From NCBI RefSeq assembly GCF_009856605.1, contig NZ_CP047242.1, positions 4,470,001-4,534,000 on the forward strand: 64,000 bases of DNA, in the 5' to 3' direction. The stretch comes from Trichormus variabilis 0441 (lineage in GTDB: Bacteria > Cyanobacteriota > Cyanobacteriia > Cyanobacteriales > Nostocaceae). Of the stretch, positions 18,367-28,647 are shown piece by piece; position 1 is the stretch's first letter, and each line of letters opens with the position of its first letter. Under the pieces are notes generated by a model. The model did no database searches. It was not told the DNA's origin and saw only the letters and a list, made by a program, of their open reading frames with translations. Both the position numbers and the translations under genes were made by a program.

Positions 18367-18443
<77 letters not shown>

Positions 18444-18549
18444 GGCTTTCTGGCGTTTGCTTTGTCTACATCTGCGCTAACAGGAGCCAAACAGGAGCCA
18501 TAAGTCACTAGCTTACCTAATATAACTCACCCATAACGTAAAAGCAACT

Positions 18550-18846
18550 TTACTTTGTTAGCTTACAATCAGGCTGAAGTGTGGCGGTACACGAGTCATG
18601 TCTTACGCTCTCTACTTGGGGCTTCTGCCTAAAGATGTGTAGTTTGCTGAGTCCTTTAGTGACCAGTATAGGAAGCTTAGGAGTCACGAAAGCTAGACCT
18701 GCTATCAGTAGAGCTAACAATTTACTGCGTAAACTTTTACCTATAGCGCCTTTCTGTACCGTTAACCCTTCTTCTGGTGGCTCTGAACCAGCAACTATTC
18801 TTTTGTTTCCGTGTTTTCGTTGGTAGTATCGTTCGTAGTTATCCAT
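18550..18846 (-). CDS. Hypothetical protein with hydrophobic segment, 98 aa
   Basis: Starts MDNYERYYQRKHGNKRIVAG; a basic N terminus is followed by one hydrophobic stretch (KLLALLIAGLAFVTPKLPILV) that may span the membrane and a basic Cys-containing tail. It is the last minus-strand gene of element 2, lying between the iteron cluster and the tRNA. No family recognised; being downstream of everything else it may have its own promoter near 18,850-18,940. Confidence 0.45.
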   Translation of the reverse strand: MDNYERYYQRKHGNKRIVAGSEPPEEGLTVQKGAIGKSLRSKLLALLIAGLAFVTPKLPILVTKGLSKLHIFRQKPQVESVRHDSCTATLQPDCKLTK

Positions 18847-18946
18847 ACAACTTAAGGCTTTTGGTGTAGCAGATAACTAAAGTATGCTCTTGTAGTTTAC
18901 AGGCTGTCTACAGACTCTCACTAACCTTTACATAATCTGCGTTTGC

Positions 18947-19250
18947 TGTCCCAAGGTTGCAGGTGTCTCCACGTTGGGACAACTACAAGGGACAGGCTGA
19001 AAGTCTTGCTGTAACTGGGTTGTCCCAGGTGTACCTAGTTGTCCCCAGGTTTTGCAGACTTTGGACAACTTTCTATCTTCGGTTGTCTCTGCCCCTCTGA
19101 TGCGTAACTACTACACATACTCTTATACTCTTATAACTCCTTGGGACAGTGGGGACAGAAGGGACAGAAAGCTGAGGTGTAGTCATACTAAGGTTTTAGG
19201 TGTCCCTAGCAAGTTGTCCCCAGGTGAAGACGACAGCTTAGGCTGGGACA
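18947..19250. repeat. Iteron-like cluster of TGTCCC/GGGACA motifs (candidate origin)
   Basis: Eleven copies of TGTCCC in either orientation lie in 304 bp: plus at 18,947, 19,021, 19,040, 19,201 and 19,215; minus at 18,976, 18,989, 19,143, 19,152, 19,161 and 19,245. Several share the longer form TTGTCCC(C)AGGT. The region 18,847-19,366 has no convincing gene and lies directly downstream of the primase-helicase, the usual place of an initiator-bound replication origin in such islands. Confidence 0.65.
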
Positions 19251-19366
19251 AGGAGGCAAGGCACAAAGAAGCCAACACCTGTTGCTAACAAGTGCTGGCT
19301 TTACGTAAATGTCAACTAAGGCTGGCTTGCGGAGGCTTCTGCCTGCTTAGTAAGTTTCCACCTAAC

Positions 19367-21460
19367 TTAGTAAAGGTCTTCTGAGTATTCTATGTTTTCT
19401 TCGGCAGGGATGTTGTCTCTAGTTACCCTTACGTCGTCAGTGCTAGTGTTTTCTAGGGTTGGGCGATACCAGTACCTAGCTTTTACACCGTTAAGCCGCT
19501 TCTGTTCTTTTGTGTAACCAAGTTGACGAAGGATAGCTGTAACATCTCCCTGTGCTTTCTTATCGTTCAGTTTGCTCACGTCGAAGCCTAAAGCGTTTTC
19601 CATGATGTCAGCAACAGTACAAGGGTTGTGACGCGCTGTGTAGGCTGTTATTTTCTCTGTCCAAGGGTTATCTTGTTCGTATTGGGCTGTATCTTCTGCT
19701 GCTTTCTCGACTTCCTCGCCTTCCAAGTGCCAGCGTTCACCAGCCAAGAACAGAGCTAACACGGCTGACCAGACATCATCTCTCATGTCTTCTACGGCTT
19801 TGGTGTCTACTCGTTGGTCTAAGTTGACAACCCAAAACCTACGATTACCTGTGCTGTCTGTTAGAAATTCGCTCTGGTTCGTTGTTCCGCAAATAACAAA
19901 ATGTCTTGGGTAGGTGTCAGGCTCACTGGCGTAAGGTCTACGGTAGGTGTCACGCTCTATGCTCATGAATGACTTAATGGCTGACACGGCTTTCTTACTG
20001 AATGCGTTCTCTATCTCGCCCCACTCGATACACCAGCTACGAGTCATGGCTAACAGTTGGTCTACGTCGCTCTTGTGTTCCCCTAGCGTCTGGAAGGACT
20101 CACCGAATAGACTGCTAAAGAATGTTGTCTTACCTATGCCTTGCTTACCCTGTAGCACAAGCGCGCAATCAGCCTTGCATCCTGGGTTAAGCGCACGAGC
20201 AACAGCAGACACAAGCCAACGACGAACATACAGCCTATGTAAACGGTTGGTGATTCCCATTGCTTGGTAGAGGGCAGACAGAATAGGCTCTGGGTCTTCT
20301 GCGGCTGTGAGGCTCTGGAGGTAAGAACGGACAGCATGATACGGGTTGTCTTGTGCAATCACAGAGGCAATCCTACGGAAGTTATCGAACGGTAGGTCTA
20401 GGTCTAACTCTCTTTCACAGATATCATGTAGCTTCTCTATGCTCATGTGAATGCCTCTGAACCTAAGCTTATTCTGCATCTCATCCCACTGTAAGCTGTT
20501 GCCAAATAACTGCTCTAAGGTATCCCGCATAAGGTTACTCTTGCTTCGTTTGCCTCCGTTGCTAGTTAGTGTAATCGGCTTACTGGCTCCTGTGTTTGCA
20601 CTGGCTAACGTTGCTCTGGTTTCCTCTTCAGACAAACCTAGACACTCGGTTGCAACAGTGAATAGACAGTTGTCAATGTCTTCGAGTTTGTCAGGGAACA
20701 AGCCAGCTAAGGTGTACTTGGTAGAGTTCAGAGTGCTGTTACGTTCGCCTTCCTTGGCTTGCTTTAGTTTGTTGGCAAAATGTTCTAGTTTCTCTCTGAA
20801 GTTCGCATCAGAGTAGTTAGGCTTAGGCTGGTTTACCTTGGCTGGCTTGCCAACTTCTGGTAACCCATCCATAATCTCATCTACTGCATACCGTGTACCC
20901 GAAGCCTCGAAGATAGTTACCAGCTTGGGTTCGCCTTTCTTGTGCAGTAGCCCTGGTAGCCTCATGACTCGCGCCAAGTCCTTCACAGCTTTGTCTGAGC
21001 CATAGTGAGCAATCAGCCTTTCTTGCCAACCTCTGAACTCATCGGCTGACGCTTGCACAGACTCATCTAGCAACCAGTAAGCATGACACTTGTCAGCACT
21101 GGTAGAGACAATCAGACTGGGCTGCAAATGCCAGCTATCGGGTATACCGTTATCACAGTCGATGAACAACGCGCGTACTTGGACTACGTTTGCTGTCTTG
21201 CGCTCTCCTGTGCCGTCTGTCTCTTGCACTGTGACAAATACGCCAGCACCTTTGTTGTTCAGTCGTTGCAGTTTGTTCCACGAGCTTGCTAACGTATCGT
21301 GCCAGCACTGGGCTAGTGTTCTATCTTTCTGTTCGCTGTCGCTGTCGTCAAAGGTTTGCCAAGTGACGGCTGTTTCTGAGTCTCCACATAGCAAGCTTAA
21401 GAAGGTTTCAGCTTGCGCGTAGTCAGAGTTTTGGTGTAGAATTGGGTTAATAGATTTCAT
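19367..21460 (-). CDS. Primase-helicase (RepB-like primase plus VapE/VirE-type helicase), 697 aa
   Basis: The N-terminal part resembles primases of small replicons (ALFIDCDNG near residue 100, HAYWLLDES near 125, VMRLPGLLHKKG near 160). The C-terminal part is a superfamily-3-like helicase of the VapE/VirE family: Walker A GKQGIGKTTFF near 437, Walker B WCIEWGEIE near 473, GTTNQSEFLTDSTGNRRFW near 520. Such fusions start replication of phage satellites and integrative plasmids. It is followed by the TGTCCC iteron cluster, which I take as the origin. The start ATG 21,460 is preceded by GGGAGG held in the loop of a small hairpin. Full length, no damage seen. Confidence 0.85.
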   Translation of the reverse strand: MKSINPILHQNSDYAQAETFLSLLCGDSETAVTWQTFDDSDSEQKDRTLAQCWHDTLASSWNKLQRLNNKGAGVFVTVQETDGTGERKTANVVQVRALFIDCDNGIPDSWHLQPSLIVSTSADKCHAYWLLDESVQASADEFRGWQERLIAHYGSDKAVKDLARVMRLPGLLHKKGEPKLVTIFEASGTRYAVDEIMDGLPEVGKPAKVNQPKPNYSDANFREKLEHFANKLKQAKEGERNSTLNSTKYTLAGLFPDKLEDIDNCLFTVATECLGLSEEETRATLASANTGASKPITLTSNGGKRSKSNLMRDTLEQLFGNSLQWDEMQNKLRFRGIHMSIEKLHDICERELDLDLPFDNFRRIASVIAQDNPYHAVRSYLQSLTAAEDPEPILSALYQAMGITNRLHRLYVRRWLVSAVARALNPGCKADCALVLQGKQGIGKTTFFSSLFGESFQTLGEHKSDVDQLLAMTRSWCIEWGEIENAFSKKAVSAIKSFMSIERDTYRRPYASEPDTYPRHFVICGTTNQSEFLTDSTGNRRFWVVNLDQRVDTKAVEDMRDDVWSAVLALFLAGERWHLEGEEVEKAAEDTAQYEQDNPWTEKITAYTARHNPCTVADIMENALGFDVSKLNDKKAQGDVTAILRQLGYTKEQKRLNGVKARYWYRPTLENTSTDDVRVTRDNIPAEENIEYSEDLY

Positions 21461-21465
21461 GAGTT

Positions 21466-21483
21466 AACCGCCTCCCTGCGGTT
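21466..21483 (-). promoter_or_regulatory. RBS-bearing hairpin before the primase-helicase gene
   Basis: On the minus strand AACCGC and GCGGTT pair around the loop AGGGAG, which is part of the ribosome-binding site, seven bases before the ATG. The Shine-Dalgarno is thus presented in or hidden by a stem-loop. Functional meaning is a guess. Confidence 0.35.
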
Positions 21484-21608
21484 TGCTTTTGTTTTGGATT
21501 TCTAGAGCCGTCATGTGTTCGCTGCACTGGCGGCTCTTTGGTTTGCTTAGAACTTCCAGTTCGCAAAGCTGGTTCACTTTCGTACTCGCTTTGCTTCGGT
21601 CGGTTTAC
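21484..21608. other. Short intergenic stretch upstream of primase-helicase
   Basis: No gene seen. It should contain the promoter or leader of the primase-helicase if that gene is not read through from 21,609. One CTTAAG motif lies at its right edge (21,608). Confidence 0.3.
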
Positions 21609-21845
21609 TTAAGATTTGGACAAGTGAGAGAGAGCTTGTGTGAGCTTGTTAATTGTCTGTTCTAAGATTTCTGTAGCCTGTGCCTTAGTCATTTCTTGCC
21701 ACTCTAGACACCAAGCCAGCCAAAGTAAGTAAGCTTCTGTAGCTGTCTCAGGTTTGGGGTTAGCTGCCAGATGGTAGGTTAGCTCTAGACGTGCTGCTTC
21801 TGTAAGCTCAGTACGGACGGAGTTCTTCTGTGCTTTGTTAGCCAC
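21609..21845 (-). CDS. Small helical protein, 78 aa
   Basis: GTG at 21,845 shares a base with the TAG of the upstream 51-aa gene (TAGTG), good evidence for coupled translation. The protein (MANKAQKNSVRTELTEAARL) is helical, with a Trp-rich middle (AYLLWLAWCLEWQEMTKAQ). No family recognised. Confidence 0.55.
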   Translation of the reverse strand: MANKAQKNSVRTELTEAARLELTYHLAANPKPETATEAYLLWLAWCLEWQEMTKAQATEILEQTINKLTQALSHLSKS

Positions 21846-22000
21846 TAATTTGTCTCCTTACCCTCAGTAAGCTCTGTGACGATAGCCAGCTTACAAAGCG
21901 TTCCAATGCGTACTTCTTTCGCTTTCGCTTGTGCTTTCAGTTGCTCGTATAACTCGTTGCTAACGTAGAACTGAACCTTAGTTGTCTTTCGGTCTGCCAT
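21845..22000 (-). CDS. Ribbon-helix-helix protein, 51 aa
   Basis: A very short gene (ATG 22,000) that most callers miss. RKTTKVQFYVSNELYEQLKA followed by QAKAKEVRIGTLCKLAIV is a textbook ribbon-helix-helix: a beta strand with alternating residues (TKVQFYV), helix A (NELYEQLKAQA) and helix B. Such proteins bind DNA as dimers and act as repressors or antitoxins. It overlaps the following 78-aa gene by one base, so the pair could be a toxin-antitoxin-like couple or simply co-expressed regulators. Confidence 0.7.
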   Translation of the reverse strand: MADRKTTKVQFYVSNELYEQLKAQAKAKEVRIGTLCKLAIVTELTEGKETN

Positions 22001-22153
22001 AGTCGCTTTGCTCCTGCTCCTAAGTTTTCTTTAGATGTCATCAGAGGTTCGTTTGACCTCTACTAGTTTTTCTTGTGGACTGTAAAACTGTAGCGTGTGA
22101 TACAGAAATAGTTAGTTTGCAAATATCCTCCTTTAGACATAGAACAGCTAATG

Positions 22154-22393
22154 CTAGTCCTTCAGCCCGTCTAATAGTTGCTGCACCTCATCTATGGCTA
22201 ACTTAAAGCGTTCATGTCTTGGGCTAGTTGGGTGAAGTTCTGCCTTCCAAGCGGAAAGCAACGAGCGCAAGTCTTCAGTTAGCTGAACAAGAGCGTCAGC
22301 GTCCATATCTTCAGGCACTCTTACAACTTTTGTTTTCTTCCCGTTGTACTTGCTTCTGCGGTCGCCACCCCAAGCCTTCTTTAGACTTTCCAT
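22154..22393 (-). CDS. Putative DNA-binding protein, 79 aa
   Basis: The ATG at 22,393 (MESLKKAWGGDRRSKYNGKK) fits the typical start of small RHH-like phage and plasmid proteins, in which a glycine/arginine-rich arm precedes a strand (TKVVRVPEDM) and helices. An upstream alternative start at 22,414 adds seven residues. Likely another small regulator of element 2. The gap to the next gene left (22,001-22,153) holds no gene that I can see. Confidence 0.5.
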   Translation of the reverse strand: MESLKKAWGGDRRSKYNGKKTKVVRVPEDMDADALVQLTEDLRSLLSAWKAELHPTSPRHERFKLAIDEVQQLLDGLKD

Positions 22394-22462
22394 ATTCTTG
22401 TTTGTTACGACCAAGTTTTGTTAGTTGTTCAGAGTTCCCGTCTGCTCGAAGTCAAACAAGAG

Positions 22463-22645
22463 TCATCTATTCGAGGCTTGTTTGTTGTCTTCGGAACTCC
22501 GCGCAGCCAGTAGTCTCTCTAGCCAATCTCGTTTCTTCTGCCAACTTCCGCCGCGCTTCTGTCCTAGCTTCTGCTCTAAGATGGCTACTACACTCCAACT
22601 CTCTGTATACAAACTTCTTAAGCTCTCTAAAGCGTGCTGTGTCAA
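22463..22645 (-). CDS. Hypothetical protein, about 60 aa
   Basis: From TTG 22,645 the frame reads MTQHALESLRSLYTESWSVV and ends in a basic stretch. The same frame is open up to a stop near 22,845 but without a usual start codon, so the true N terminus may lie further upstream (non-standard start, or a frameshift from the 56-aa gene at 22,806-22,976). Helical and basic; function unknown. Confidence 0.4.
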   Translation of the reverse strand: MTQHALESLRSLYTESWSVVAILEQKLGQKRGGSWQKKRDWLERLLAARSSEDNKQASNR

Positions 22646-22805
22646 CTCGATTCCTGTAAGCGGTTGTTCGTTCAGCAGTTCACTTACAGCATTTACTTGT
22701 GTTTGCTGGGTGTTTTCGTAGTCGGCTGAACGTTCGTGAACAGGCGAACGCTGGCTTGCTGTAAGGCTTTCAGCGTTTTCTGAGGCTGAACTTAAGGTGA
22801 ACTGG

Positions 22806-22976
22806 TCAGTCAGTTGCGAACGAGAATAGACAGATGAGGGTAGCTAATGCGGCTGATAGGTTGCCGTGTCCCTCAGAGTCAGCGAACGCTTGCAAGGCTT
22901 CTGCTTGCTTTGGGTTAACGTCTAAGCGAGAACGCCTCGAATAGCTGGCTTGTTCTTGACTTCGAGTTCTAGGCAT
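22806..22976 (-). CDS. Small hypothetical protein, 56 aa
   Basis: ATG 22,976 overlaps the end of the nuclease gene by 8 nt. It begins MPRTRSQEQASYSRRSRLDV, a basic arm, and ends with a hydrophobic helix (LSAALATLICLFSFATD). Gene size and overlap support coding. The frame stops (TGA) inside the open frame of the next small gene. Function unknown. Confidence 0.5.
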   Translation of the reverse strand: MPRTRSQEQASYSRRSRLDVNPKQAEALQAFADSEGHGNLSAALATLICLFSFATD

Positions 22977-23799
22977 AGTTATCTACCTCCTCTACTAAGT
23001 CTCCTAGTGTGCAGAAGCAATCACGGTAAGCCTTGTAAGCCCAGTAATAGCGTTCTCTGTTGCAGGTTTCTTCCTCTTCCCACTCATCACTGAGGGCAGA
23101 TGGTAAGTATACAAGCCCGTAGACAGTGCGCTTTTCATCAGACAACCTACCGATAGGGCATAAGACAATACAACCAAGCAGTGTCTCGCCTCTTCGCTTG
23201 CAAGCCTCAGCTTTCGCGTCCCAGGCAGAACATGAGTCAACCCAAAGACTCTGAGGATAGCGGCGATAGCCAGCAAGATGACTGCTGCTGTCTTTAGGTA
23301 GACCTAGTGTGCAGCCAGCGTACCGAGCCTCTTTCACTTCCAAGGCAAACTTGCGCCCGTTAGCGTTAGTTATTATGATGTCTGCTTGCTTGCTCTTAGT
23401 GTCTCCATCGGCTACCGCAGGCAACACGACGGCATTCAGACCTTGCCTAGCGAGTTCTTGGACGACTAAGTTCTCTAGCTTGTGTGACCGTTGGTAAGTG
23501 TCGGCATAAGTTAACAGGCGTTCGTGGGTCATATAGTCTGCTACCTTCCCTTTACGTTTGTCTTGTCTCAGTTTCTCAGGACTGCTAACGCTAACGTGAG
23601 AACTACCTAAATGAACGAGTGTTTGCCCACCCAAGTCAACTTTCGTGTGAGGCTCCACAGGTGAACTAAGTACCAACCATTCGTTAGCTTGGGCTATCGC
23701 TTCCTCTTCGCTTAAGTTCTCGTATGGGTAAGTTGGCTGGAGCGTTGGTTCTAGCTCCAGTAGATGACCTTCTATAATCCGTTGCTTTCTCACTTTCAT
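22969..23799 (-). CDS. PD-(D/E)XK nuclease-like protein, 276 aa
   Basis: In the middle (about residues 110-155), ENLVVQELARQGLNAVVLPA leads into QADIIITNANGRKFALEVKE: the helix, Asp, and ExK arrangement of the PD-(D/E)XK nuclease superfamily, which includes restriction enzymes, Holliday-junction resolvases and phage nucleases. The N terminus is charged and Pro rich; the C-terminal half has a Trp/Cys-rich part (RRYPQSLWVDSCSAWDAKAE) and an acidic tail. In element 2 it could resolve replication products or act against competing phages. Nuclease fold is likely; target unknown. Confidence 0.65.
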   Translation of the reverse strand: MKVRKQRIIEGHLLELEPTLQPTYPYENLSEEEAIAQANEWLVLSSPVEPHTKVDLGGQTLVHLGSSHVSVSSPEKLRQDKRKGKVADYMTHERLLTYADTYQRSHKLENLVVQELARQGLNAVVLPAVADGDTKSKQADIIITNANGRKFALEVKEARYAGCTLGLPKDSSSHLAGYRRYPQSLWVDSCSAWDAKAEACKRRGETLLGCIVLCPIGRLSDEKRTVYGLVYLPSALSDEWEEEETCNRERYYWAYKAYRDCFCTLGDLVEEVDNYA

Positions 23800-23910
23800 T
23801 CTCCTACTTAGTAATTTGTCTGATAAGCCAGCTTAGGTTCGCAGCCTTGGCTGGCTTTTTGCTTTCCTTAGTCTTCAGGGCTTTCTTGCGTAAGTCCGAA
23901 GCGGCTAACT

Positions 23911-24171
23911 TTAGTTATCTGTTTGCGACTTCGGAAGCTTGTGTGTCTTACCATCGAAGGTTAGCTTGTCCAGGTTCTCTAGAAGTTCTCGTACGAGTTC
24001 ACTTAGGCTTCTGTAGCCCAAGTCCTTAGCCATGTCCTTATACCGTTTACCTAATGTCGGATTGCCTAAGTAAACCTCTACCGTTCCGTAAGTTGTCCTC
24101 TTGGTTAGGAGACAATAATCATCGTCTACTGGTAAAAGAAGGTTGTCTTGTCGTTGCTTTCTTCTGCTCAC
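23911..24171 (-). CDS. Small RHH-like protein, 86 aa
   Basis: Begins MSRRKQRQDNLLLPVDDDYC. After a strand-rich start, KRYKDMAKDLGYRSLSELVR then ELLENLDKL matches the two helices of a ribbon-helix-helix (G-Y-x-S-x-S-E-L-V-R-E-L-L is typical). It probably binds DNA as a dimer and could recognise the CTTAAG array or other repeats nearby. A gap of 111 bp separates it from the nuclease gene. Confidence 0.6.
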   Translation of the reverse strand: MSRRKQRQDNLLLPVDDDYCLLTKRTTYGTVEVYLGNPTLGKRYKDMAKDLGYRSLSELVRELLENLDKLTFDGKTHKLPKSQTDN

Positions 24172-24192
24172 TGCCTTAAGTCTCCGTTTTCT

Positions 24193-24363
24193 TTAGTTCT
24201 CTGCGCTGTGTAGTGCTTTCACGTAATCCTTAGCTGCCCAGATTTCCTGCTGTATGCTTCTGCGTTCTTTGTCTGTTCTGGCTATCTGTAGCTGGCTGTA
24301 TAGGTCTGCTAAGTGTAGATAAGCTGCACACAGAGCTTGTCTCACTAGCTGGCTTGTTTCCAC
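24193..24363 (-). CDS. Small helical protein, 56 aa
   Basis: GTG 24,363 follows AGGAGG at a spacing of seven bases, an excellent ribosome-binding site, and the frame (METSQLVRQALCAAYLHLAD) stays helical to its stop at 24,193. Too short for most callers. It precedes the RHH-like gene by 21 bp. Function unknown. Confidence 0.5.
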   Translation of the reverse strand: METSQLVRQALCAAYLHLADLYSQLQIARTDKERRSIQQEIWAAKDYVKALHSAEN

Positions 24364-24432
24364 TGGCTCACCTCCTCTTCGGTTAACTTATCCGGGTATT
24401 CTCTAGAAAAGCTGTGGGGTAAACTTGGAGGG

Positions 24433-25164
24433 CTTAAGCGAACAAAAGCAGAGGTAATTTGTAGTGATAACCGTACCTCTGTTGTTCGGGAAGTCCGAGT
24501 CAATAGATAACTTAAGTGTGCTGTTGACTTCGGTTGGTTGACCCAAAGTAAGAAAGACAAAGACAAAGTAAGAAACGAGTAAGAAACGCTTGCTTAAGCT
24601 AACGTGAACCCTATACAGCGTAAGCATAAGGGAAGCCATTACTGAGCAAACCTCTTGCTTACTTGTAGCTTGCTACTGACAACAGCAGTAAACTGCCTGA
24701 CCCCTCCCCTTCCTTACTTTTGTGACCCTCTACTTAGCAGCTTGGGAAACGAAAGAAGAAAACCTTAGTCGGCTGTAGCTTAAGTGCTGGCTAACTATAA
24801 TTGACCAACTGCTGTCTAAGGCTTGCTTGGTGCTTAGACAAAGACTTTCTCGCTCCAGCACAAGTGCGCTTAAGCCTCCGGGGGGAGTGAACTTTTGGCT
24901 GGCACTGGCAGTAGTTTTCTCTAGCAAATAGCCAACGTTTACCCGGACACTTAAGCCTTCTTCAGTCCACATAACAGACAAAGCCAACCGCAGATAACAA
25001 AAGCCTGTAAAGCTTACAGTGCTTAAGTTCCAGGCTCACTTCTATTCTATTTGTCTCTCCACAAAGGAAAACAAACGCTGAGAACCTTGCAAACTAAGGA
25101 AAGCGTTGGTGTATTCGTGCGCTGTGGACTTGGATACCCTAAGTTTACTTAGTTCTCACTTAAG
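24433..25164. repeat. Array of eight CTTAAG palindromes
   Basis: CTTAAG starts at 24,433, 24,511, 24,593, 24,779, 24,869, 24,950, 25,022 and 25,159. Steps are 78, 82, 186, 90, 81, 72 and 137 bp, mostly near 80 bp or about twice that. About nine more copies are scattered through the rest of element 2 (for example 18,851, 21,396, 21,608, 22,617, 22,791, 23,711, 24,175 and 27,964). Flanks are not otherwise conserved. Confidence 0.6.
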
Positions 25165-25216
25165 TCAACCCAAAGCAAACAGGCGCAAGGTTGCTGAAGT
25201 GTACCCGCGCCCAACT

Positions 25217-25312
25217 GATAAGCCTCAGAAGGGTAGCTCTTATCTGGCTTCTGAGATTTACTTGCTTGCTGAATAAGCTTTCAGAAGAGTTCTCTTATTC
25301 TGACTTCTGAAG
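25217..25312. repeat. Tandem pair of covarying pseudoknot-like repeats
   Basis: Each unit has two interleaved inverted repeats in the order A-B-A'-B'. Unit 1: A GATAAG (25,217)/CTTATC (25,239), B CTCAGAAG (25,224)/CTTCTGAG (25,248). Unit 2: A GAATAAG (25,271)/CTTATTC (25,294), B TTCAGAAG (25,280)/CTTCTGAA (25,304). Differences between units occur on both sides of each stem, so pairing is kept. As RNA this is an H-type pseudoknot or two mutually exclusive hairpins. Confidence 0.65.
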
Positions 25313-26362
25313 CTGTCAACCGTTGTTGGTTCTTAGGTTGGCAGGAGGTAAGCTCTTTCAGAGCGAACGAAGTTCTTTTGTACTAACTTCGGTAGACTGG
25401 CTGTGACGAGTAAGGCTGTATACAACAAGCGTTTTCTTGGCGTGTCTTAGTGTGCAGCATATTTGGTGATACTCGTTGCTAGTTGTTGGTAGCTGTCGTT
25501 TGTATTCTTCCAAGTGTGCAATAGCTAACCATAAGCGCCCTGAGATGTCAGTAAGCTGTATTTCGCTGTCACTGTTCCACCTCTGAAAACAAGCAGTACT
25601 TTAGGTTATCCGGTGATTCGTTCACTTCGTTCATAGTTATTCTCTCTGTAAGTCCCAAAGTCTGGCACACCGTAGTTCTTCTAATATACTGGTACTTCAT
25701 GGTCACTGATACAGCCTGCGTAGTGTCTCATGATTACCTCTGGACTGTTCCCAACCCAACGAGCTATCTGCGGGATAGGGACACCTGCCTCTATACACTG
25801 GCTAATGAAAGTGTGCCTAGTGTTGTAAGGGCTTCTGTATCATCGTACTTTGCCCTCGTCCACGAGCGTAGCGAGTATGCCTCTGTAAACCTTCTGACCG
25901 CTTCTACACCCACGCCACACCTGATTCGTAAACTTACCGTTGTCTATCGGTTTACCGTTTGGACTGGTGAACACCAGTGAGTCAGGGCTAGTGTTAGCTG
26001 GACGAATTGACAAAAGTAGACTAGAGAGCTTCTGATTACATGGGAACTTTCTAGGTTTTCCAGTCTTCGTAGTCTTCCTTATGTCTAGCTGGCTATCATA
26101 AGACTCGCAGAAGGTTATCTGAGTACAGTCTAGGCTGACGTGTTGCCACCGTAACCCAATAGCTTCACCAGTCCGGCATCCAGTAAGAAATAGAAACTGG
26201 ACAAAAAATAAGTAATGCGGTCGTTTGTCTGCGAAAGCCTGAATGATTGTGTCTCGTTCTGCTGCTGTGAACGCATTGGTCACAAGTTAAAAGTCAGGAA
26301 ATTTTGTCAATACATCTTTGAGCATAAATATTTCTGTATAAGAATGATAATCGTATCGAAGG

Positions 26363-26393
26363 GGAAGGGTGCGAGAGACGCTCGCACCCTTCC
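26363..26393 (+). terminator. Strong hairpin near the IS left end
   Basis: GGAAGGGTGCGAG (26,363-26,375) pairs perfectly with CTCGCACCCTTCC (26,381-26,393). It lies between the left inverted repeat and the transposase and would block transcription or translation from outside, as IS elements commonly do. Confidence 0.7.
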
Positions 26394-26503
26394 ACACCCC
26401 TATTTTTGATGATCATTATTGTGCTGGTTTGCTAGGATGATTTGCTTGCCAAAAAATTATGTGAAACTCAGTTAAGACAAATACTTGAGCAATGTAAAAA
26501 ACC

Positions 26504-27877
26504 GTGAGTAGCAGCCGTAAGACTAATCGAGATCATGCCAAAAAGAAGCAACGGCCGATGGTGGAAGACGAAGTAATAGCATCGCATCTGTCGGCATTAC
26601 TAACACCAGCCATTACATCCCAAGAAAATTACTATCGGCAACTGGGATTAAGAGATAGGATTCTCAACTTACCATTAATGGTGGCGGCGGTGCTAACTCT
26701 ACTCTGGCGTGATGTTGCAGGAGTCACGGAACTGACAAGAATGTTAGCCAGAGAAGGCTTTCTATGGTGTAGACCCCTGGAGGTTAGCCAGCAAGCAATA
26801 TCTCAAAGGTTTTTAACTTTTCCGGCTCAATTATTTGAGAAAGTATTTAAAGATTTATTGCCACATTTACAAGCTTCTTGGCAAAGAAGAAATCAACGTA
26901 AAATCCCCCCAAGTGTTCAATTTACTTTGACGAAATTTGAAAAGATATGGATAGTAGACTGTTCAATCTTAGAAGCGTTATTTCAGAAGCTTGATAGCTT
27001 AAAAGATGCGCCCCAAGGACAATTAGCCGGAAAAATTGGCACGGTCATAAATTTAGTAAATCTTCTACCTGTAGAAATCTGGTTTTGTGAGAATCCCAGA
27101 ACTGCTGATACAAAGTTTGAAGCAGATATTTTAAATTTAGTTACACCCCATACGTTGCTGTTACTAGATAGAGGATTCTATCACTTTAACTTTTGGCTAC
27201 AATTAATTGCTCAGAATGTAAATTTTATTACTCGGTTGAAGAAGGGAGCAGCAATTCATGTCCAGCAAGTATTTACAGATAGCTTTGCGCTAAGAGACCG
27301 TTTGGTGCGTCTTGGTTCTGGCACAAAGAAAACTACGTTTATTACTTTACGTCTCGTTGAAATTCGTTCAGATAAAACATGGCATTCTTATTTAACTAGT
27401 GTACTTGACCCAGAAGTTTTACCTCCATACGTTGTAGCTGATTTATACCGCCGCAGATGGCGAATTGAAGATGCTTTTAATACTGTAAAGCGACTTTTGG
27501 GTTTAAGTTATTTATGGACTGGTTCTGTTAATGGTGTTCAATTGCAAGTTTGGGGTACTTGGTTATTTTATGCTGTATTGGTTGATTTAGGTGATGCTGT
27601 CGCTGACGAACTTTCTCTACCTTTTGACTCCATTTCTTTAGAGATGATTTATCGTGGACTTTATCATTTTTATGTAGCCCATCAACAAGGCAAGGCAACT
27701 GACCCTATTAAATATTTTGCATCTCCTGAAAATCAAGACTTAGGGATTGTTAAACGGCAACGAAAACCAAATATGAAGCTCATTGTTGCACCCTTCCCTG
27801 ATCAACAACGAGGAACTGAGGAATTTTTCTTTCAACCTCCTTCTAAAATCCCCTTGACAACTGGCTCACAACATTAA
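26504..27877 (+). CDS. IS4-family DDE transposase, 457 aa
   Basis: Starts at GTG 26,504. The DDE triad is visible: WIVDCSILEAL (first Asp, about residue 150), LLLDRGFYHF (second Asp, about 221) and RRRWRIEDAFNTVKRLLG (Glu, about 321), the last in the Y-x2-R-x3-E-x6-K arrangement that marks IS4-type enzymes. The N terminus is basic and helical, suited to binding the inverted repeats. The frame is intact. It catalyses cut-and-paste movement with 9-bp target duplication in this case. Confidence 0.92.
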   Translation: MSSSRKTNRDHAKKKQRPMVEDEVIASHLSALLTPAITSQENYYRQLGLRDRILNLPLMVAAVLTLLWRDVAGVTELTRMLAREGFLWCRPLEVSQQAISQRFLTFPAQLFEKVFKDLLPHLQASWQRRNQRKIPPSVQFTLTKFEKIWIVDCSILEALFQKLDSLKDAPQGQLAGKIGTVINLVNLLPVEIWFCENPRTADTKFEADILNLVTPHTLLLLDRGFYHFNFWLQLIAQNVNFITRLKKGAAIHVQQVFTDSFALRDRLVRLGSGTKKTTFITLRLVEIRSDKTWHSYLTSVLDPEVLPPYVVADLYRRRWRIEDAFNTVKRLLGLSYLWTGSVNGVQLQVWGTWLFYAVLVDLGDAVADELSLPFDSISLEMIYRGLYHFYVAHQQGKATDPIKYFASPENQDLGIVKRQRKPNMKLIVAPFPDQQRGTEEFFFQPPSKIPLTTGSQH

Positions 27878-28604
27878 CTTGTGACCAATGCTGTGAACGG
27901 GTCTATACTCTTGTCGCTCTTGGGCTTTCTTATACTGCTTGCCATCCCCGCAAACGGATTCGACTTAAGTAACCCAGATGACTCAGCCCATCTGCAACAA
28001 GCTGCAAAGTGAGTTAGCAAACGTTTAGCTGTGCTGGCACTTAGCGTCTGTAATAAGAAATCACGAATAGCTACAGCGTCCCTGATGTCTTTGCTAGGTA
28101 AGCTATCGATGTGATGAGCGAACTTTCTTATGTAATCTCGCTGATAGGTTGTAGGGGCAAGCTGAGGTCTTTTGTAATCGCAGTAGCTAACCCATAATTC
28201 TGATAGGTCAACTTTCTTAGCTACCGTTATCTTAGGTCTGAACTGAAGCTTATAGCGGTCGAGAGTTGGGTCTAGCTGGTCAGTCCTAATGTCTTCTTCT
28301 ATCTGCCAAGCGACTACCTGGGCTTTCTTCTGGTTGTCTGTTGTTGCGTCTAACCCAGTGTAAATATAACGAGAGCTACCGTCTGCAATACGCCTCGGTA
28401 GCCTTAGTCTTAGTTTGCCTTGCTTATCTTCTACTGCAACATCAGCTTTGGAGGACTTTCCGCGAAGCGGAGACTTCTGGAGTTTGGTCTGCTTTGGTTT
28501 GCTGTTGTTTTCTTCAGGAGCCATATAGGAGCCAACTAGCGTTTTCTCTCAGTCGCTAGTTTCCTAAAGGCTTAATCTGGCGTTGTCAGCGATGCGGAGC
28601 CAGC

Positions 28605-28647
<43 letters not shown>

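Follow-up and report, generated by a model that had tools for sequence, protein, structure and literature searches.

Actinomycete integrative and conjugative elements combine a tyrosine integrase and a transfer RNA (tRNA) target with a primase-type replication protein and an FtsK-like ATPase, and some of them move double-stranded DNA; phage satellites carry an integrase together with a VapE-type helicase. The avoidance of palindromic restriction sites is already well known. Excerpts of one study state that, in host genomes, avoidance is as frequent for asymmetric orthodox Type II sites as for palindromes (PMC4687349), and the available part of a virus survey, whose main tables hold palindromes, gives no systematic avoidance of Type I and Type III sites (PMC6286503). 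A 4-bp asymmetric system, MhoVII (GATG/CATC), was reported from Mycoplasma hominis in 2026, according to passages of its description (PMC12898733). The GATC and GGCC methylases All0061 and Alr1052 are described in Anabaena PCC 7120, and according to the same excerpts, one group apart, nearly all cyanobacteria have dmtA (GATC) and some have GATC nucleases (PMC4390886). Here we describe an integrated element at 18444..28604 of a 64,000-nucleotide stretch of Trichormus variabilis 0441 (NZ_CP047242.1, positions 4,470,001 to 4,534,000; the whole stretch is called the window) that lacks several short asymmetric words, as do most of its relatives and three cyanophages.

Words absent from the element

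Words were counted in 18444-26264 plus 27900-28604 (8,526 bp), which is the element outside an insertion sequence (IS) at 26274..27890, and compared with first-order Markov expectations from the element's own dinucleotides, among which AT stands at 0.50 and AG at 1.41 of expectation. The largest depletion in an unbiased word count was that of non-palindromic words: TTGAA, TTGAG and TTGAT together occur 0 times versus 58.7 expected, TTGAC is at expectation (19 versus 19.6), and TTTAT (0 versus 12.5) and GTGGT (0 versus 14.6) are also missing. The three TTGA words (TTGAA/G/T) are absent from each strand counted apart (TTGAA 0/TTCAA 0, TTGAG 0/CTCAA 0, TTGAT 0/ATCAA 0). They are common in the rest of the window, where 585 occur versus 508 expected. 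The IS contains 22 of them along with 12 TTTAT and thus serves as an unpurged internal control, which suggests that resident DNA escapes purging in the present host.

The first-pass annotation of this DNA had noticed palindromes instead. It claimed that GATC, GGCC, GGWCC and RCCGGY are absent outside the IS and that none of five CCGG sites is flanked as RCCGGY, and direct counts bear this out (GATC 0 versus 14.0; GGCC 0 versus 19.4; GGWCC 0 versus 8.4; RCCGGY 0 versus 3.6; CCGG 5 versus 11.2). GGNCC is likewise missing (0 versus 15.6). The 20-35 copies that it expected of both GATC and GGCC were overestimates by the same Markov figures. Of the 136 strand-merged 4-mers, every one but GGCC and GATC occurs at least once, and shuffling synonymous codons across 4,716 coding bases gave means of 9.5 GATC and 11.2 GGCC, with zero for either word in 0 of 500 shuffles. 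Its built-in control was read correctly, as the IS has 3 GATC and 1 GGCC. CYCGRG and ATGCAT, also said to be absent, do have zero copies in the element (0 versus 4.3 and 0 versus 0.8), but the rest of the window is equally without both (0 versus 26.4 and 0 versus 19.9). It also has a single GGWCC versus 70.0 expected, so these three near-absent sites are uninformative about the element. RCCGGY, CYCGRG and ATGCAT are expected too seldom in 8.5 kb to convince alone. Part of the contrast in GATC between element and chromosome arises because the chromosome carries HIP1 (GCGATCGC), which supplies 7.4 of the 18.1 chromosomal GATC per 8.5 kb.

Unrelated palindromes are not equally depleted (AGCT 78 versus 79.2, CATG 18 versus 17.8, GCGC 21 versus 26.3). 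Others are mildly low, the lowest being AATT, with 10 copies versus 24.8 (first order) or 13.1 (highest order). The annotation proposed that only the targets of known cyanobacterial restriction-modification (R-M) or methylation systems would be depleted. The strongest purges contradict this, for they concern asymmetric words without a matching system; to our knowledge, no cyanobacterial system corresponds to TTGAA/G/T, or to the words GATT, GTTG and CTGA considered below.

Related elements and cyanophages

Relatives of the window element, which belongs to a family of integrative replicons, about 9-12 kb long, in filamentous cyanobacteria, were found in Nostocales and neighbours by protein searches with its 697-amino-acid (aa) RepB-type primase/VapE-type helicase, hereafter VapE. 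Ten loci, the window included, were examined for purging. The relatives' boundaries were drawn from GATC/GGCC-free runs and open reading frames (ORFs), without use of the asymmetric words. L006 and L040 are short stretches of 2.95 and 4.8 kb, and L036 was taken as the same stretch as L006, given identical match coordinates, and counted once.

Nine of the ten family members show an asymmetric purge, of TTGA (or TTGAA/G/T) in four and of GATT in five. Each of the nine has one or two asymmetric 4-5 bp words absent or nearly so, together with 0-3 GATC and 0-2 GGCC. TTGA occurs 19 times versus 78 expected in the window element, 8 versus 30 in L006, 8 versus 102 in L041 and 4 versus 77 in L042, and the residual copies in the first two are exclusively TTGAC. 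GATT is reduced to 1 versus 50 in L004, 0 versus 61 in L043, 0 versus 76 in L044 and 1 versus 57 in L046, which for these four longest members of the group sums to 2 versus 244; L040 has 0 versus 29.5 in its 4.8 kb. L043 has neither GATT nor AATC when the strands are counted apart, and GATA and GATG are abundant throughout the GATT-free set. A second word is lost in several of these elements: GTTG in L044 (5 versus 95) and L040 (2 versus 40), CTGA in L046 (1 versus 78), and AGTNC in both L043 and L004. L004 shares its genome with the window element yet has a different purged word. Shuffling of codons in chosen genes corroborates the purges in the window element, L041, L004, L043, L044 and L046, as well as in the phages A-4L and LPP-2. 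None of 61 overlapping control windows, drawn from chromosomal flanks, three plasmids of Nostoc and the full length of L045 (itself home of a distant relative), had an asymmetric 4-mer at or below one tenth of expectation.

The purge is not a general trait of VapE-type elements. In another 26 VapE loci, 2.4-4.3 kb long, GATC or GGCC was low in 10 and an asymmetric word in one (L029, CGGA 2 versus 20.5). Several other features were observed in the family. L044 1-12500 is strongly low in A-N-A/G-G-G words and in ACACG (ACAGG 0 versus 25.5, ACACG 0 versus 19.9, AAAGG 4 versus 26.4). A serine recombinase is encoded by two elements of the TTGA group (L041 15637-16323, L042 14782-15480), and a second tyrosine recombinase by three of the GATT group (L004 13999-14934, L043 13302-14360, L044 851-1807). 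A protein at L044 2873-3469 matches PADLOC PDC-S22 (E 5e-9) and is a candidate defence gene within the element.

Comparison of shared genes points to continuing selection. The VapE genes of the window element and L006 have 72.6% DNA identity and 0 TTGAA/G/T each, where relaxed synonymous drift over half of their divergence would give about 8 in each. In a recombinase gene common to L043 and L004 (82.7% DNA identity), the 8 TTGAA/G/T of L043 have all been altered in L004, which has 0, through differing substitutions; sites changed in such varied ways are unlike the product of one mutational bias. L004 7420-15900 contains 21 TTGAA/G/T versus 58 expected and is nearly GATT-free, and L004 is perhaps in the course of losing TTGAA/G/T as a second word.

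These data make it extremely unlikely that composition or mutation bias of the elements, rather than selection against cutting, emptied them of these words. The odd dinucleotides of the window element (AT 0.50, AG 1.41 of expectation) and the low A/T runs of the TTGA group (AAAAA 20 versus 99) would fit such a bias, but the expectations are built on the element's own dinucleotides and the codon shuffles preserve its codons. Furthermore, one-base neighbours of the lost words are normal (TTGAC in the window element; GATA and GATG), and the lost sites were altered in differing ways.

Thirteen cyanophage records were read: A-4L over 41,000 of 41,750 nucleotides, N1 over 49,000 of 64,960, CHP58 whole, and ten others over 18-30 kb, including LPP-2 (30,000 of 42,319) and Pf-WMP3 (24,001 of 43,249). 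Three of the 13, namely A-4L, LPP-2 and Pf-WMP3, have an asymmetric 3- or 4-mer purge. A-4L, a phage of Anabaena variabilis, has 0 GATT versus 244 expected (GATT 0 and AATC 0 with the strands apart), 0 GATC versus 88 and 0 GGCC versus 57. TTGA is mildly low in its shuffled genes (146 versus 196). In the Leptolyngbya phages the lost word is a trinucleotide, with AAT/ATT at 4 versus 551 in 30 kb of LPP-2 and at 1 versus 407 in 24 kb of Pf-WMP3; the LPP-2 part has 4 AAT, all within its first 3.2 kb, and 0 ATT. LPP-1 is low in GGCC (2 versus 112) and GATC (3 versus 57) with no other 4-mer lost, and Pf-WMP4, Lbo240-yong1 and TR020 have 0 GATC and 0 GGCC, the only two 4-mers that they lose. N1 is without GGCC and GGACC. 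No 4-mer purge was seen in A-1(L), YongM, Dfl-JY23, CL131 and CHP58; GGACC is missing from A-1(L), YongM and CHP58. The asymmetric 5-mer CCTCG/CGAGG is low in N1 (2 versus 26.7) and A-1(L) (0 versus 20.2).

The purge is not a general phage trait either. We fetched 87 IMG/VR loci with a capsid or VapE alignment, of which 83 were at least 4 kb long. An asymmetric 3- or 4-mer was purged in two of the 83, whose length and word identify them as A-4L and Pf-WMP3; a palindrome was missing in 32. Searching viral contigs with a single VapE sequence found nothing, and with the VapE alignment it gave 7 distant loci; among the 6 listed there was no purge of GATC, GGCC or an asymmetric word, and CTAG was low in 3. 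The asymmetric purge is rare among the phages sampled, and the word lost by A-4L, GATT, is identical to that lost by half of the element family.

A-4L and GATT-free elements also have a gene in common. The first gene of A-4L (L050 432-1085) has homologues at L043 12843-13259 (43% identity over 95 aa) and L004 13211-13726 (34% over 56 aa), and its N-terminus recurs at L044 34-633 with a different C-terminus. Its product has a SAP-like N-terminal part (recognised by eye), a proline-rich linker and a probable membrane helix; three of the four versions also conserve the tail. Among the DNA compared, the gene occurs only in A-4L, L004, L043 and L044, and a further search added unplaced proteins; no homologue was found in the TTGA group (the window element, L006, L041 and L042) or in L046. 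A gene shared in this way indicates that DNA has been exchanged between phage and elements, which probably meet in the same cells. The gene was rejected as the determinant of GATT loss, as none of 17 other loci with its N-terminal domain (weaker matches) is GATT-free.

This exchange bears on a different explanation, by which phages, or the helper phages of satellite elements, encode a nuclease or DNA-binding protein directed against one word in all other DNA, remain immune by lacking that word, and are followed in this by their satellites. We regard such self-avoidance as unlikely. The purge patterns do track the lineage of the mobile element and not the listed host (LPP-1 versus LPP-2), the presence of the A-4L gene in L004 and L043 attests to exchange, and some elements have nuclease genes (HNH in L043, GIY-YIG in L046). 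However, the elements reside in word-rich chromosomes, where a nuclease of this kind would have to stay silent or be lethal to the host, and no nuclease family was found to unite the GATT-free elements or the TTGA-free ones; an element-encoded nuclease as common cause is thus unsupported for either word group. L046 is GATT-free without the shared gene, and the 17 further loci with its N-terminal domain keep GATT. The window element encodes a 276-aa protein (22969..23799, minus strand) that looks nuclease-like by eye only, from its translation; it had no Pfam match above cut-off, no PHROGs match and one weak PADLOC match (E 0.022). Homologues occur in three of the seven relatives compared (L041, L046 and L004), which leaves L042, where one other protein was domain-scanned, TTGA-poor without one.

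Host restriction as the proposed cause

We consider it fairly probable that this mobile DNA is purged by restriction systems of its hosts, whose targets would be short and often asymmetric. On entry into a new cell, the element's double-stranded DNA would be cut by host endonucleases that recognise short words, and the survivors would be variants without the words. For the group of the window element, the target of an uncharacterised restriction system would be TTGA, or TTGA followed by A, G or T. For the second element group and phage A-4L it would be GATT (perhaps GAT followed by C or T), and individual lineages would have met GTTG or CTGA as targets. Integration and methylation would then protect the element from cutting, and for this reason the later IS could have stayed unpurged.

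The annotation had proposed a purge by repeated passage through restricting hosts. This is still the best account, with the amendments that the most depleted words are asymmetric ones without a known system and that three of the sites it named are absent host-wide. Repeated passage is supported because relatives with 58-78% VapE identity to the window element keep the TTGA-type purge despite expected drift, and because the Anabaena phage A-4L is without the word lost in five further relatives. Both strands are empty (0 and 0 in the window element, L043 and A-4L; AAT 4 and ATT 0 in LPP-2), which argues for selection on DNA and not on messenger RNA (mRNA). Selection at the mRNA level, through toxin RNases or codon use, was ruled out, as the purge affects the two strands alike and the words reappear when codons are shuffled.

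Candidate enzymes were sought in host genomes. In the host genome (G000), the candidates are three full-length methylase domains, two of D12 type and one of N6/N4 type, plus three partial matches. Fused adenine methylases were also considered. The frames that hold a complete PF02086 domain measure 272-351 aa across 13 genomes of the genus, so that no methylase looks fused. Phosphorothioation was set aside, GAAC/GTTC being the only words named in the literature passages at hand.

Several findings weigh against restriction by host systems. No nuclease or methylase for the asymmetric words was identified in a search that covered two methyltransferase families and left nucleases unsurveyed. The full-length relative L045, probably from Chroococcidiopsis, has no asymmetric purge, nor have the three Nostoc plasmids, and TTGA and GATT are undepleted in the host chromosome. 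Six further phages that infect Nostocales (N1, A-1(L), YongM, Dfl-JY23, CL131 and CHP58; 18-49 kb each) show no GATT purge, and LPP-1 and LPP-2 differ in their purges with the same listed host strain. The loss of TTGAA/G/T is not seen in a second, shorter gene that L043 and L004 have in common (78.2% identity), with 2 such sites in L043 and 1 in L004, at the place of one of the two. AAT, moreover, is shorter than any Type II target we know of. As a separate observation, L045 has 0 GGCC throughout 19 kb, in element and flanks both.

The words could alternatively be protospacer adjacent motifs (PAMs) of clustered regularly interspaced short palindromic repeats (CRISPR) systems common in the hosts, with the elements shedding every PAM. 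They are short, asymmetric and partly degenerate, as PAMs are, and excerpts of two studies report PAM depletion in phages of Streptococcus (PMC4246573) and Pseudomonas aeruginosa (PMC12174588). Nevertheless, the frequencies given in those excerpts are lower than expected rather than near-completely absent (PMC4246573, PMC12174588). One spacer endangers one site, which makes the erasure of tens to hundreds of sites hard to drive, and the co-purged GATC and GGCC are methylase targets. PAM loss is thus a very unlikely cause.

Beyond host restriction of this one family, we tentatively suggest, at somewhat less than even confidence, that cyanobacteria hold undescribed defences reading asymmetric 3-5 bp words (AAT, GATT, TTGA, GTTG, CTGA and others), which may drive elements and viruses to near-zero copies, so that each mobile genome would list the defences its lineage has met.

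Gene content and comparison with known systems

The ends of the window element are exact. A 43-bp direct repeat, with its left copy at 18401..18443 and its right copy at 28605..28647 (att sites), overlaps the end of the tRNA-Cys (GCA) gene that is the integration target (18367..18438, minus strand; ARAGORN). Integrase, direct repeats and tRNA end are all present, as in a tRNA-targeted integrative element. All of the element's own genes located here lie on the minus strand. They include the VapE protein (19367..21460; Pfam PF16793, PF05272) and a 60-aa remnant of the C-terminus of an FtsK-like ATPase (22463..22645; 67% identity over 46 aa to L041 12531-13820). This ATPase is whole in L041, L043 and L044 and in two pieces in L042; in L041 and L043 its match to FtsK_SpoIIIE stays under the Pfam cut-off. 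The tyrosine integrase gene is interrupted by the IS into a C-terminal part (25840..26273; PF00589; 82% identity to L041) and an N-terminal part (27891..28524; weak arm-binding and SAM-like domain matches; 68% identity to L041). The IS itself (26274..27890, plus strand) has inverted ends, a transposase at 26504-27877 and a 9-bp target duplication (26265-26273, 27891-27899). Several small ORFs are also present. A PHROGs scan of 10 proteins, which took in few of the small ORFs, gave one weak terminase-like match (E 0.00044) and no clear packaging gene.

What is new here is the asymmetry of the words, the near-completeness of their loss and the loss of GATT common to a phage and integrative elements. 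Near-total loss of asymmetric tetranucleotides, or of a trinucleotide in phages, was unreported among the matches listed from open-licence literature (titles and abstract beginnings), and enzymes for TTGA, GATT, GTTG, CTGA or AAT were likewise not among them. If restriction is the true cause, the purged words would be the specificities of enzymes yet to be isolated, including rare 4-bp asymmetric ones useful as tools, and the defences faced by a mobile element could be read from its genome alone. With GATT common to A-4L and five elements, the idea is directly testable in laboratory Anabaena.

Set beside phage satellites, the element family is alike in its size, integrase, primase-helicase and the one gene common to a phage and two elements, but differs in having no clear packaging or capsid gene among the proteins scanned. 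The family shares the tyrosine integrase, tRNA target, primase-type replication protein and FtsK-like ATPase of actinomycete integrative and conjugative elements; it differs in being cyanobacterial and in the weakness of the ATPase match, the window element keeping a remnant only, and it is known here from genes alone. PAM depletion in phages resembles the present case in the loss of short asymmetric words, but is partial in the excerpted reports and nearly absolute here. In Type II site avoidance, too, short palindromes that are host targets for methylation or cleavage disappear wholly or largely (GATC and GGCC in this case), whereas the strongest losses here are of asymmetric 4-5-mers and, in two phages, of a trinucleotide. 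MhoVII reads another word, and its paper, in the passages available, calls the motif virtually unknown in the literature; it is nevertheless a 4-bp strand-asymmetric word methylated on both strands, which demonstrates that such a specificity exists (PMC12898733).

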